This document shows positions 1,165 to 6,601 of a DNA stretch of 64,000 bases, piece by piece (within the stretch, counting starts at the first letter, position 1; each line of letters opens with the position of its first letter). Source of the DNA: Marvania coccoides. Lineage: Eukaryota; Chlorophyta; Trebouxiophyceae; Chlorellales; Chlorellaceae. The stretch lies in contig OY978097.1 in assembly GCA_963854735.1 (NCBI GenBank), positions 2,790,001 through 2,854,000 of the forward strand, read 5' to 3'. The notes below the pieces were generated by a model. The model worked only from the letters and a program-made list of their open reading frames with translations. It was not told the origin of the DNA and did no database searches. A program made the position numbers and the translations under genes.

Positions 1165-3495
1165 TCATTTCTTCCGGCGGGCAGCTTTTTTCGTATTCTT
1201 CTTCGGCGACAAGGCAGCCAAAATCCGCTTCGACTTTGACGGCGACTTGCTGCTCGGCTGAGGGGCAGGCGCAGCCCGGGGCGTGCGGGAAGAGCTGGGC
1301 TCTGCAACAGGCTCCACGGCTGCCGGAGCAGCTTTCAAGGGCTTCTCCTTCTGGCTCTGAAGTTGTATCGACGGTGCGCAGTCTGCAGCTTCTGCTGGCG
1401 CTGCTACCTCCTCGGTCGGTACCCGCACGCCCCTGAACCGCTCCACCTCTTTGAGGGACCTGAATCTCTCGCCAGTGGGGATGTGGGTGTACTTGCGCTT
1501 AACAATGCCAACTTTCCACTCCTCAGGAGGCCAAACGCCACGGACAGCTCCCTCCACCAGCCGTTCAGGGACAGGGACCCGCTTCCGTTTTGCCCAATTA
1601 CCGCCAGGGGCTGGCGCAGTGGTTCCGACAGGCGGCTGCGCTGGCACTGTTGCCGCCGGCGCTGCCGCTGTTAAGGTTCCAGCCTCCTCCACTGCCTGAC
1701 GCTCCGCTACAGGCTGCACCGCTGGAGGGGCTGCCTCCGCTGCTGCAGTTGGGGGCTCTATGGGTGCGGCCAGTTCTTCTGCTGCAGTCGCTTCTAAAGT
1801 CTGCCGTGAAAGCGCTGCTGCTGCTGGCGCTGGCACGCGCACCCCGCGGAATCGCTCCACCTCTGGGATTGACTTTAAGCGGTAGCCGGTGGGCAGATGG
1901 ACGTAGTAGAAGTCGCGCCCTTTCCCGCCCTTCCGCGGCACATTGAGGACCTCCCACTCTTCTGCGGGCACGGCGCCAGCCACAGCGCCCTCCACCAGTT
2001 TCTCCGGCATGCCGGGGTTCTTGATCTTTTCGATGACGGCGCTGGGGCGCCTTTTCGTCGGCGACGTGACCACCGCTGCTGCCGCTGCTTTTGGCGGGAG
2101 TCCCACTTTTTCGGCGCTCTCCTGCCGCTGCCGCGGTTTCTGCTGCACCAATTTTCTTGGTCGACCGCCAACCACGTACTCCTCATCGCTCTCAGCCTTT
2201 GTCCGCTTGGCGTTCATCTTCTTCTTCTCCTGCTGGCGCCTGCTCGGAGCCTCCTCTTCTGCCCCCTCCTCCTCCTCCTTCTGCTCCTCCTCCACCTTCT
2301 TGGGGCGACCCCGTTTCTTGCCGCTCCCCTGCTGCACCGGCTTGTGTGGCAGCGGAATGGCGATCGAAAAAGGTTCCCTGCTGCCCCACAAAGCTGTTGT
2401 TTCATCAGCCTCTTCATCCTCAGAATCGACGAATGCCTGCGTGAGGCTCCTGCACCCCCGCCGCGCGCCCCTGCCCATCCCAGCCAGCGCGTCCGCCTGG
2501 GCTGCAGCTGCAGCAGCATCAAAAACGGCAGCAGGGCGGATGAGCGGCACCGGAAGGCAGATGTCGACGGCAGACAGCTGAGAGCTGCCTCTCATGCCGT
2601 GGTCCAGAGGGAGCGGCGGCGTCAGCGTGGGTTGGTACTCCGGTTCGGTGCGGGGGCGGCTGGGGTCGCGGTTGAAAATGTAGGCTTTAAAGGACCGACC
2701 GCTGCCATTCATTTTCACAGAGAAAGAGTCCACAAGCGTGAGGGGACCAAACCCGTAATCATCCTCCATGGCCAGGGCAGGGTCTTTCGCGCGCACAGCC
2801 CGCTGCACGAGCGTGACGGAGCGCAGCGACTTGGAGGCGGCAAAAAGGCGACCGAAGCCCACCCTGGCGTCCACCGGTACTCCCTCCCAAAAGGAGTAGG
2901 CGTGGGTGTAGCTGTTCAACGTATGCATCGCCTCGATGGGCAGGTTGATGATGAGAGGCAGCGGCAGTGGCATGTTTGTGAGCCCCTTGCGTTGCACCGC
3001 TTGAGAGGCTTGTTTGACGAATGCCATGGCTTTGTTGCACTTGACGGGGTCCATTTCCACGCCCGTGGCTTCGCGCAGCTCTGTGGTCAGCAGCGCCTGC
3101 ATCAGGGGCCGGCACAGCCCCGCACCTACGTCCACCAGGTGGCTGGTGGCGCCCAGGCCGCAGCTAGTCGCCATCACATCCAAAATGCGCTGCATACCAA
3201 CGCCGGAGATGCTGCCGTACAGCCCCTCCACGCCCTCTCCACCCCCCAGGTTGTTCTGCAAGTGACGATAGCAAAGCGGCGGGGGTTCATTTGCCAGCAA
3301 AAAAAGTTGAATTAAAATAAGAGTTACTTCGGGAGGGAGGGCTGCTTTGATTTTGGGGTGTGTGTGGATGTGATGGATGCGTCGCAGCACGACTATTAGA
3401 CTGAAGAACGACCGCACCTCTATTGAGTTCATCGTATTCTGCAAGGAGCGCACTCGCTGCTCCTCTGACGAGCGCTCCTTCTTCGTACAATGCAT
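1165..3495 (-). CDS. DOT1-like SAM methyltransferase fused to AT-hook and two MBD-like domains
   Basis: One open frame of 776 aa. Residues about 90-290 form a class I SAM-dependent methyltransferase domain: YGSISGVGMQRILDVM leads into motif I (VDVGAGLCRP, residues 121-130), followed by an acidic GVEMD strand end and a YSFWEGVPVDAR segment as in DOT1-like algal and protist methyltransferases. Residues near 390 hold an AT-hook (KKRGRPKK) in a charged linker. The C-terminal part carries two related modules (about 493-552 and 638-690), each with W, a basic strand, an HxPTGxRxxS-type turn and VERFRGVRVP, which resemble methyl-CpG-binding domains. A basic tail ends in RRKK. A possible 72-nt intron (3327-3256, GTAACT to TTGCAG) keeps the frame, giving 752 aa if spliced. 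Likely nuclear; a chromatin substrate is inferred, not shown. The uL1 gene diverges 297 bp away. Confidence 0.7.
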   Translation of the reverse strand: MHCTKKERSSEEQRVRSLQNTMNSIEVRSFFSLIVVLRRIHHIHTHPKIKAALPPEVTLILIQLFLLANEPPPLCYRHLQNNLGGGEGVEGLYGSISGVGMQRILDVMATSCGLGATSHLVDVGAGLCRPLMQALLTTELREATGVEMDPVKCNKAMAFVKQASQAVQRKGLTNMPLPLPLIINLPIEAMHTLNSYTHAYSFWEGVPVDARVGFGRLFAASKSLRSVTLVQRAVRAKDPALAMEDDYGFGPLTLVDSFSVKMNGSGRSFKAYIFNRDPSRPRTEPEYQPTLTPPLPLDHGMRGSSQLSAVDICLPVPLIRPAAVFDAAAAAAQADALAGMGRGARRGCRSLTQAFVDSEDEEADETTALWGSREPFSIAIPLPHKPVQQGSGKKRGRPKKVEEEQKEEEEGAEEEAPSRRQQEKKKMNAKRTKAESDEEYVVGGRPRKLVQQKPRQRQESAEKVGLPPKAAAAAVVTSPTKRRPSAVIEKIKNPGMPEKLVEGAVAGAVPAEEWEVLNVPRKGGKGRDFYYVHLPTGYRLKSIPEVERFRGVRVPAPAAAALSRQTLEATAAEELAAPIEPPTAAAEAAPPAVQPVAERQAVEEAGTLTAAAPAATVPAQPPVGTTAPAPGGNWAKRKRVPVPERLVEGAVRGVWPPEEWKVGIVKRKYTHIPTGERFRSLKEVERFRGVRVPTEEVAAPAEAADCAPSIQLQSQKEKPLKAAPAAVEPVAEPSSSRTPRAAPAPQPSSKSPSKSKRILAALSPKKNTKKAARRKK

Positions 3496-3792: not shown

Positions 3793-4813
3793 ATGTTGCG
3801 GATAGGTGCGAAGGAGTCGCTCACAAAAATTGTGACTGCGGTCCATCTCCGCGTGTTCTCTGCCGTAAGTGGCATTTCAACAGCCCGTGTTTATTCCAGC
3901 TAGTGCAATTGAGCCATCCATGCCGCGTTCTTTCTGTTTCATCCTCTCAACCCCACGCTCACTTTCATGTCTTACAAACCTTCTGTTCGAGCAGGAGGCA
4001 GCGCAGCTGGCCACCTCCGCAGACGCACCCCCCGTTATATCCGAGGATGCCACCGGCGGCATCCGCACCGTGGGCGGCCTCCCGCTGCCCCGTTTCGTCC
4101 TCACGCAGCGCCGCGATCGCCCCGCCCCCGCCCCCCTCATGGACGCCATCCGCACCGTCCAGGCCTCGAAACGCGCGCGGTTCGACGAGTCTATCGACCT
4201 GGCAGTCAATCTGGGCATTGACCCGCGCAGGGGGGACCAAATGGTGCGAGGGGCGGTGACGCTTCCTCACGGCACCGGCAAAGCCGTCAGAGTGTGCGTG
4301 TTCGCCAAAGGCGAGGCCGCAGAGGCGGCGCGCGCCGCGGGGGCCGACATTGTGGGCGACGAGGACCTCATTTCCCGCATCCAAGAGAGCGGCGGCTCTG
4401 GGCTGGCGTTTGACAAGTGCGTGGCTACACCCGAGCTGATGTCAAAGCTGGGCAAAATCGCCCGCATTCTGGGGCCCCGTGGGCTCATGCCCAACCCCAA
4501 GCTGGGCACCGTCACCCCCAATGTGGCGGAAGCCATCGGACAGCTGAAGCGTGGCCGCGTTGAATTTCGGGCTGACAAGGGCGGTGTTGTGCATGCCACA
4601 GTGGGACGCAGGAGCTTCGGGGAGGCGCAGGTGGAAGAGAATGTGGGGGCGCTGGCGGGGGCGCTGCTGGCGGCGCGGCCAAAGGGCGTGAAAGGCAGCG
4701 GAGCGGGTGGGTATCTGTTGGGGGCGGCGCTTTCTTCCACAATGGGCAGTGGCGTGCCGGTGACGATCGCCTCGCTGGTGCACGCTGCGCAGGTGATAAA
4801 GACCGGCAAGTAA
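3793..4813 (+). CDS. organellar (probably mitochondrial) ribosomal protein uL1
   Basis: Two exons (3793-3864, 3995-4813; GTAAGT donor, GCAG acceptor, phase 0) encode 296 aa. Residues about 75-295 are a bacterial-type L1 domain with the signature ILGPRGLMPNPKLGTV, the strand VEFRADKGGVVHATVG and an RFDESIDLAVNLGIDPR start. The protein binds 23S-type rRNA at the L1 stalk and helps release deacylated tRNA from the E site. The extension MLRIGAKESLTKIVTAVHLR is basic and amphipathic without acidic excess at its start, favouring mitochondria, though a plastid target is not excluded. The protein is longer than bacterial L1 (about 230 aa) mainly because of this extension. It is divergent from the methyltransferase gene, with 297 bp between start codons. 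Confidence 0.9.
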
Positions 4814-5193
4814 AGAGCGGCTGCGGAGAGTCCGCAGCCTGATAACGCGTGTGTTTTTATTTTCAATTCTTCTTTAGTGCAAGCGACTGCGTTATTATTA
4901 AATTTTATTGAACAGCTCAAAAGGTACATGCACGCAAGGATTGTGTTTATTATAAAGACACGTTTTTTTCCCCCATTCTTAATGAAACAACATCAAGCAA
5001 ACATTTGACAAATTATGACATAGAAACCTAGAGCCTTTATTCTCCGACTCTCGAAAATTACATTCAACCAAAAAAGAGACTCACACATAGGTTCATTAAA
5101 GGAAAATATTAAAGGGAGGAGGGGATGAGGCGTGCAGTGTTGCTTTAGTTGTGAAAAGGAGGGGAAGCTTCTTGAGAGCGGCGATGAATATCT
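4814..5193. other. convergent intergenic region, no gene seen
   Basis: AT-rich spacer between the 3' ends of the uL1 and FHA-like genes; no repeat or coding signal noted. Confidence 0.6.
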
Positions 5194-5396
5194 TTACGCG
5201 TGGGCGTGGACGTTGCGAAGCACGGTGTACTGAACGTCGGGCCCCATTTCAACGGTAGCTCCAGGGTGCAGCTTGAAGCGCTCGCCCTTCTTCACGGGGC
5301 TGCCATCCACCTTGATATCGCACACTGCAAACAAACAGCGGAAATGTGTATTAAAAATGTGAATTAGCTGCATTTCACGCACTTATAATTCAACAC

Positions 5397-5479
<83 letters not shown>

Positions 5480-5929
5480 AAAATAATATTGGATGGTAGA
5501 AGGTCATGTTGGTGCCCCTTACTTGAGTCGATGTCGGTCAAGAAAAGGACTGAAGGTGAGTCCAGCGGGCGAGCAGGCCCTTCGGCCTCGAAGAGAATGT
5601 GGACGCCGCCGTGGTCGACGACAGTGAGGTCCACAGCTTCAGAGCTCTTCGCAGCGTAGTCAGCAGCGCCGATAGAGCACACCCTGTAATAAAAAAAAAG
5701 CAAGTGCGGTAAAATGGCGTCGGGCAATTAAAAAATGTCCAAACTAGAGGCAAAGAAGTTGCTCTTACTTGCGGGATCCGATGACGCCCGTGAGGTCCAC
5801 GTCCTTGAGGTTGGCAGCCTTCACCTTTGGCGCAAGTGACCACAGCGTATTTGCCTGAATTTTAAGCGCCCGGCGTACAGGCCTGGGGAGGGTTACGCGA
5901 GACGGAGAGACGAACACGTTGGCACGCAT
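5194..5929 (-). CDS. small FHA-like domain protein, 150 aa, probably plastid or mitochondrial
   Basis: Three exons (5929-5769, 5683-5523, 5324-5194) with phases 2 and 1 give an exact 150-aa frame. The first 30 residues (MRANVFVSPSRVTLPRPVRR...) are basic and Ser-rich, like an organelle transit peptide. The rest resembles a divergent forkhead-associated fold: GVIGSRKVCSIG, a VDLTVVDHGGVHILF strand pair, FLTDIDSMCDIKVDG in place of the usual D-x-S-x-NGT-x-VNG loop, and a KLHPGATVEMG turn. FHA domains bind phosphothreonine, but the Arg and Ser/His contacts are not obvious here, so phosphopeptide binding is uncertain. Intron 2 contains a long AT dinucleotide repeat. Confidence 0.6.
5401..5475. 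repeat. (AT)n microsatellite, about 75 bp
   Basis: A nearly pure AT dinucleotide tract inside intron 2 of the FHA-like gene, close to its 3' side. It is likely length-polymorphic and could form a hairpin in the pre-mRNA. Confidence 0.97.
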
Positions 5930-6601
5930 CGTGGCGATGGGGAGAGCTGGATAAGGGGTTTCGCTTTGAATGGCTGCAGGGGGAGATGCAGAAATGTTGG
6001 GTGGGTGAGTGAAGTTTTAGAGCAACCGTGTTGCCCCACGGGCGCATACCTGGTAATAAAATGTTCGAGAGACTCAATTTCACGAGTGCCGAGATGATTT
6101 GAGATAACAGCGAGACCTGGAGAGAGAGAATTAAACAAAACTTTTTTTGCCGAGACCTGGTGACGTGGCAGAATCTCACAGTTACAGTCGTGCTGCTTTC
6201 ATTTCAAGCTTTTGATTAGCTAATATTTGGATTGTGGCGAAGTGGGTGCCCCAGGAAGCAGTCAAAACTGCTCAGAAACGGGCGTTGTCTTTGGGGTGCA
6301 CCCGCTGCTGGTGCTCTGTTGATTTTGACATCTTACATCCTTAATGTCCTGTTTTTTCTCGTTTCGCTTTCGGCTTAGGGGCTCCGCTGCGTCCCATTTG
6401 TATTCGGCTCTTTCCTTGAGAACAACAGGTTATTTGGTGGGTATGAGGTGGTGAGGTGCGACAGTGGTGGTGTGCTTGGGCATTCGTTTGTCCAGCGGTG
6501 TGACAGCGAGTGGTGAATGGCGATTAGTGCATGGAGAGAATGAATATTATGCATCTTAACAAACGGTTCTATATTTATTTTCATATCTCACAGTTTATAT
6601 C

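Follow-up and report, generated by a model that had tools for sequence, protein, structure and literature searches.

In the green alga Marvania coccoides, a gene on the minus strand of contig OY978097.1 holds a DOT1-like methyltransferase domain, an AT-hook and two MBD-like modules, in that order, in a single frame. It was found in a stretch of 64,000 nucleotides (assembly GCA_963854735.1, positions 2,790,001 to 2,854,000 of the contig), which is referred to as the window. We read the product of this one gene as a chromatin-tethered methyltransferase whose tail, with two MBD modules that lack the C-terminal hairpin, would favour methyl-CpG; judged from the sequence, this reading has slightly less than an even chance of being right. 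The combination of these domains in one frame had been proposed by a sequence-only reading of the window and is borne out by the open frame and the domain matches. The frame is open over 776 codons between 3495 and 1165, from the ATG at 3495 to the stop codon at 1167-1165, and the protein predicted after removal of a 162-nt intron has 722 residues.

The methyltransferase belongs to a core-chlorophyte family, of which we found 13 relatives; the query and these relatives make up the family set of 14 members. None of the 13 relatives has an MBD match at E 1, and the module region is nearly all gap in their alignment with the query. If the fusion were an artefact of the gene model, with a small MBD gene lying by chance in the frame of a separate methyltransferase gene, the lack of MBD matches in the relatives would be expected, and the query tail is indeed more acidic than theirs: from YSFWEGVP on, K+R is 0.16 and D+E 0.12 in the query, compared with 0.12-0.17 and 0.05-0.09 in the relatives. 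Such an artefact is nonetheless very improbable. In 300 base shuffles of the stretch, read in three frames on one strand, the longest stop-free run reached at most 308 codons and 153 on average. The codon-position composition does not change clearly between residues 290 and 490, and the tails of the relatives are basic too, with a GRP core in three of them. On whether this is one gene or two, a point that the earlier reading had left to transcripts, the open frame favours one gene.

Tandem MBD-like modules and AT-hooks

The whole protein scores 23.3 bits (E 5.1e-5) with the Pfam MBD profile (PF01429), over the cut-off of 21; two stretches are counted if hits up to a permissive E of 10 are admitted. 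The modules taken singly reach 19.3 and 14.2 bits, so that the expected match of the repeats to MBD profiles holds for the two jointly and not for either one. The modules are true repeats of each other, identical at 35 of 60 aligned positions (58%; BLASTP, E 3e-20). The direct repeats found at the DNA level between 1000 and 3700 are short and located elsewhere. A Foldseek search with module 1 gave AtMBD5 and AtMBD6 in the first two rows, though at E 0.44. In the window, a regular expression for the MBD core matched the two modules and no other place, and it had no hit in 200 shuffles; it is no independent test because it was composed after the modules had been seen.

The MBD matches end at profile position 52 of 77, and the C-terminal DNA-binding hairpin was not found. 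As described in passages of PMC8811898, R111, R133, D121 and Y123 are essential in MeCP2, and in AtMBD6 a Glu stabilises the second arginine finger. The same passages mention the individual MBD units of AtMBD7 and describe binding by AtMBD6 as methyl-CpG-specific with reduced affinity, which the authors partly blame on a missing hairpin. Compared by eye in the alignments, module 1 has the first Arg, a Lys at the second arginine finger, an Asp shifted by one, the Tyr and the Glu. Module 2 has both Arg residues, the Tyr and the Glu; the Asp is deleted with the L1 loop. AtMBD7 has several weak MBD units, which are thought to act together. The two modules described here may bind methylated DNA weakly and cooperatively, and binding of DNA or proteins regardless of methylation would be nearly as likely.

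An AT-hook consists of an RGRP core flanked by basic residues. KKRGRPKK has both, which confirms the AT-hook seen by the sequence-only reading. The linker that carries it, along with a second, degenerate motif, is both acidic and basic. A GRP core outside motif I occurs in 3 of 13 relatives and is canonical in one (P0004, KRRGRPPGT), and SP(x)K/R motifs, counted over the whole protein, are present in 12 of 13.

Methyltransferase domain and its family

The domain is predicted with confidence to have the seven-beta-strand fold of class I methyltransferases, which bind S-adenosylmethionine (SAM). In DOT1 enzymes an NNF-type motif IV is expected; it is absent here, and its position reads YSFWEGVP in all 14 members. 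The substrate may not be a histone at all, in which case the enzyme would act on RNA or another protein and DOT1 would only be the named profile closest to what is a generic class I fold. We consider this rather unlikely. At E 1, no family other than DOT1 is matched by every one of the 14 members, and one of five relatives scanned singly, P0005 of Gonium, passes the DOT1 cut-off with 24.7 bits. In the VIA structural search, a bacterial DOT1L ranked first with a lead of 1.6 Z, and the list also has DOT1A and several entries for DOT1L. In addition, the DNA-binding motifs of the tail suggest chromatin. The DOT1-like label given by the sequence-only reading is supported by the top structural match, and the Pfam score of the query itself remains under the cut-off.

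The relatives include "DOT1 domain-containing" proteins of Chlorella ohadii (P0002), Micractinium (P0006), Gonium (P0005), Raphidocelis (P0007), Trebouxia (P0010) and Scenedesmus (P0011). They share with the query the methyltransferase domain (50-58% identical over core columns), the signature motifs and a basic low-complexity tail, and the exon junction fits in 6 of 13. They differ from it in the missing MBD match and in motif I, which reads GAGLG. In four relatives (P0011, P0012, P0013 and P0014), the SAM-binding half of the domain is separated from the half with YSFWEGVP by long low-complexity insertions. Since none of the 13 relatives has an MBD match, the MBD tail was apparently added in this lineage. 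On the simplest reading, an ancestral methyltransferase with a basic tail gained a tandem MBD; the alternative is loss in the other lines.

In the search for the same architecture in other proteins, 7995 candidates, those with most words in common, were scored first. A search with the module region (residues 485-700) gave nothing at E 0.01 among the 7996 candidates sharing most words, a list that was probably filled by the Ala-rich linker, and one with residues 640-698 gave nothing at E 10 among 75 candidates. These searches reach only relatives with exact shared words and similar length, and uniqueness of the fusion does not follow from them. Within the genome, searches for copies of the modules found none at E 10 beyond the two (two candidates scored per search), and the search with the whole protein returned only the query gene itself (four candidates). 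A genome search for further DOT1-like genes, which did not list the query gene itself, gave two candidates under the DOT1 cut-off that were rejected: by eye, L002 resembles a protein-L-isoaspartate methyltransferase and L003 an RNA m5U methyltransferase. In a search for viral relatives of the methyltransferase, 88 stretches matched a pattern and none was confirmed.

Gene model

The intron probably runs from 3417 to 3256 (162 nt), with the donor GAG|GTGCGG at 3417, rather than from 3327 to 3256 (72 nt). This is preferred because its removal joins the end of exon 1, RVRSLQNTMNSIE, to NNLGGGEGVEGLYGSI, as in P0002 (RLRALYSVMQSIE NKLGGGEGVEGLYGSI). The best blastp scores summed over the 13 relatives are 2331.8 bits with the 162-nt intron, 2284.4 with the 72-nt intron and 2276.4 with no intron. 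Compared with the 72-nt model, the 162-nt model gains 3 to 14 bits in six relatives (P0002, P0003, P0006, P0007, P0008 and P0009), scores equally in four (P0004, P0010, P0011 and P0014) and loses in three (P0005 by 2, P0012 by 0.6 and P0013 by 7 bits). After removal of the 162-nt intron, up to 19 residues of exon 1 align with relatives (P0008, from residue 8). The sequence MQSFEVRG...PAQNKLGGGEG in the Gonium model P0005 suggests a read-through of the same intron, which would explain why this relative shows no gain. Of the intron at 3256-3327 suggested by the sequence-only reading, the acceptor at 3256 thus agrees with the relatives, and the donor at 3327 probably gives way to the better-scoring one at 3417. 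The frame alone cannot reveal the intron, since it is in frame and free of stops. The GC content at third codon positions is 0.45 in residues 41-80 as compared with 0.68-0.82 in residues 81-280; this drop is unspecific, as the Ala-rich linker (residues 561-600) is likewise at 0.45. The features of the gene are collected in Table 1.

Table 1. Features of the methyltransferase gene, with positions counted in the window
Feature	Positions	Strand	Basis
Exon 1, 26 residues, MHCTKKERSSEEQRVRSLQNTMNSIE	3418..3495	-	sequence
Probable 162-nt intron (GTGCGG...TTGCAG), in frame, no stop codon	3256..3417	-	blastp scores against relatives
Class I (seven-beta-strand) SAM methyltransferase domain; core-chlorophyte DOT1-like family	2668..3255	-	
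Motif I (SAM binding), VDVGAGLCRP; GAGLG in relatives	3106..3135	-	alignment
Family signature YSFWEGVP (motif IV position)	2875..2898	-	invariant in 14/14 members
AT-hook KKRGRPKK, residues 393-400	2296..2319	-	RGRP core from sequence
Second, degenerate AT-hook-like motif VVGGRPRKL	2149..2175	-	GRP core
MBD-like module 1, 59 residues	1831..2007	-	Pfam MBD 19.3 bits, E 8.6e-4, under cut-off 21
MBD-like module 2, 51 residues, 8 shorter, L1 loop missing	1417..1569	-	Pfam MBD 14.2 bits, E 0.033, under cut-off
Basic C-terminal tail with SPSK and SPKK motifs	1168..1293	-	sequence

The whole protein has four Pfam matches at E 10, none of the SET family. NCBIfam and PADLOC gave no match at E 1. Rfam at gathering scores and a tRNA scan found nothing in the window. 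Elsewhere in the window, a plus-strand frame at 3869-4813, head to head with the methyltransferase gene, resembles the organellar ribosomal protein uL1, and exons at 22-530 on the minus strand appear to encode a small, LEA-like protein of repeated helices, both by eye. About 37 AT repeats, also noted by eye, lie at 5401-5475 within an apparent intron of a minus-strand gene (about 5170-5930).

DNA methylation in the genome

The 22.5-Mb genome contains a DNMT1-like frame with BAH domains (L004) and further DNA_methylase pieces. A CMT-like (chromomethylase-like) frame with DNA_methylase and chromo domains was also seen (L005, G000:C6:42112-45495); the two frames are called DNMT1-like and CMT-like after their domain content. 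A methylated ligand for the modules is plausible because the genome has these two frames. SRA domains were found at four places, three of them over the cut-off and one in frame with RING-like cysteines (by eye). The K79 segment of H3 is present in 8 of the 12 histone loci read. In the window the observed/expected ratio is 0.91 for CpG and 1.27 for GpC, a mild CpG depletion.

A six-frame search of the genome for MBD, with five candidates, passed one other place (L001). The same search did not list the query gene, and weak copies are therefore missed by it. L001 (G000:C7:291669-294809, frame 1-2001) is a second MBD protein with two Pfam MBD stretches and 47.3 bits in all. It also has a Cys-rich segment, CGVCRTCLNPQLKKGC, which is CXXC-finger-like by eye and has no Pfam match, and apparently a Lys at the second arginine-finger position too (KRHKS, by eye).

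Discussion

How might such a protein work? The N-terminal domain would bind SAM, and the DOT1-like seven-beta-strand enzyme would probably methylate a chromatin protein, with a histone lysine as the first candidate. The tail, presumably disordered, would keep the enzyme on DNA, where the AT-hook and the SPKK motifs may bind unspecifically or to AT-rich DNA. The two hairpin-less, plant-type MBD modules would jointly favour methyl-CpG DNA in the manner of AtMBD7. In evolutionary terms, the tandem MBD would have been added in this lineage to a tail that has only basic motifs in the relatives found.

Three points weigh against this proposal. Each module is impaired, and in a different way, because module 1 has the Lys finger and module 2 has lost the L1 loop with its Asp; each is thus without something that methyl-CpG readers use. 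The kinship with DOT1 is remote, as the Pfam DOT1 profile (PF08123) gives 14.4 bits for the whole protein and 17.2 bits for the domain alone and the cut-off of 23 is not reached. Motif I of the query is altered from GAGLG to GAGLC, with a His replaced by Gln nearby. The coupling of 5-methylcytosine (5mC) reading to chromatin methylation, as suggested by the sequence-only reading, has a real architecture behind it and is, given these three points, only plausible.

MBD3 and several plant MBDs tether to DNA or partners without regard to methylation. The modules described here may do the same, so that the architecture would be as we describe it, the tail would hold the enzyme on DNA or partner proteins, and DNA methylation would play no part. 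We regard this as a serious possibility, if not the one we would back. It would account for module 1 having lost its second arginine finger and module 2 its L1 loop; the absent hairpin and the weak CpG depletion are in line with it, and MBD3 is among the ten MBD chains compared. Against it, both modules retain the first arginine and the Tyr along with the supporting Glu, and module 2 retains both arginines; moreover, AtMBD6 still selects methyl-CpG without the hairpin, as reported in passages of PMC8811898.

The changes in motif I could also mean that the methyltransferase domain is catalytically dead and that the protein is a scaffold on DNA. Of the 70 columns in which the other members do not vary, 7 are changed in the query, the highest number among the 14, and the query has the longest branch in the family. 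Loss of catalysis is nevertheless distinctly unlikely, as motif I still has its Asp and its first two Gly, the acidic residues in GVEMD and the YSFWEGVP signature are intact, and the predicted fold is confident. Class I enzymes do not strictly require the third Gly of motif I.

A more far-reaching version of the chromatin-tethered reading is a self-contained reader-writer outside the SET class, in which tandem methyl-CpG-binding modules would steer a DOT1-like enzyme. In this green alga, 5mC would then determine where the nucleosome core is methylated (at H3K79 or a neighbouring residue), alongside the SRA-SET loop between 5mC and H3K9. We think this version unlikely. A tail that reads methylated DNA would make one polypeptide the link between 5mC and a DOT1-type mark; we know of such a link only in SET enzymes. 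The gene would then show in nature how a targeting module was acquired by a member of a conserved algal methyltransferase family, and the fusion would provide a handle on what that family methylates. Seen in one genome, it may be a novel means by which a methyltransferase is guided along the genome.

Comparison with known systems places the two halves of the protein in different company. The DOT1/KMT4 enzymes (human DOT1L, yeast Dot1, T. brucei DOT1A and the bacterial DOT1L 9ne1) carry the NNF-type motif where the query has YSFWEGVP, and the query falls under their Pfam cut-off; its likeness to them is suggested by sequence profiles and the predicted fold. Plant MBD5, MBD6 and MBD7 are not, to our knowledge, fused to a methyltransferase. 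AtMBD7 has repeated modules like the query, and the short MBD core without the C-terminal hairpin is shared with this group, as described for AtMBD6 in passages of PMC8811898; the query differs in its one Lys finger and its one missing L1 loop. In brown algae, the DOT1 subfamilies DOT1.2-DOT1.5 are likewise algal DOT1-like enzymes with new domain partners, in a group that has lost DNA methylation, according to sections of PMC13076208, the main text of which does not contain the string MBD. A literature search over titles and abstract openings found no DOT1-MBD fusion.

The closest parallels in design are SETDB1, which combines an MBD with a SET domain, and SUVH/KRYPTONITE, which combines SRA with SET. 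Both fuse a domain of the DNA-methylation-reader type to a methyltransferase, as the query does. SRA-SET proteins occur in chlorophytes, as stated in part of PMC5725981. The catalytic domain of these proteins is SET, and the query has a seven-beta-strand domain and no SET domain. Since SRA-SET proteins and SETDB1 already join a methylation reader to a histone methyltransferase, the reader-writer principle is known from the SET class; its pairing with a DOT1-like enzyme may be new.
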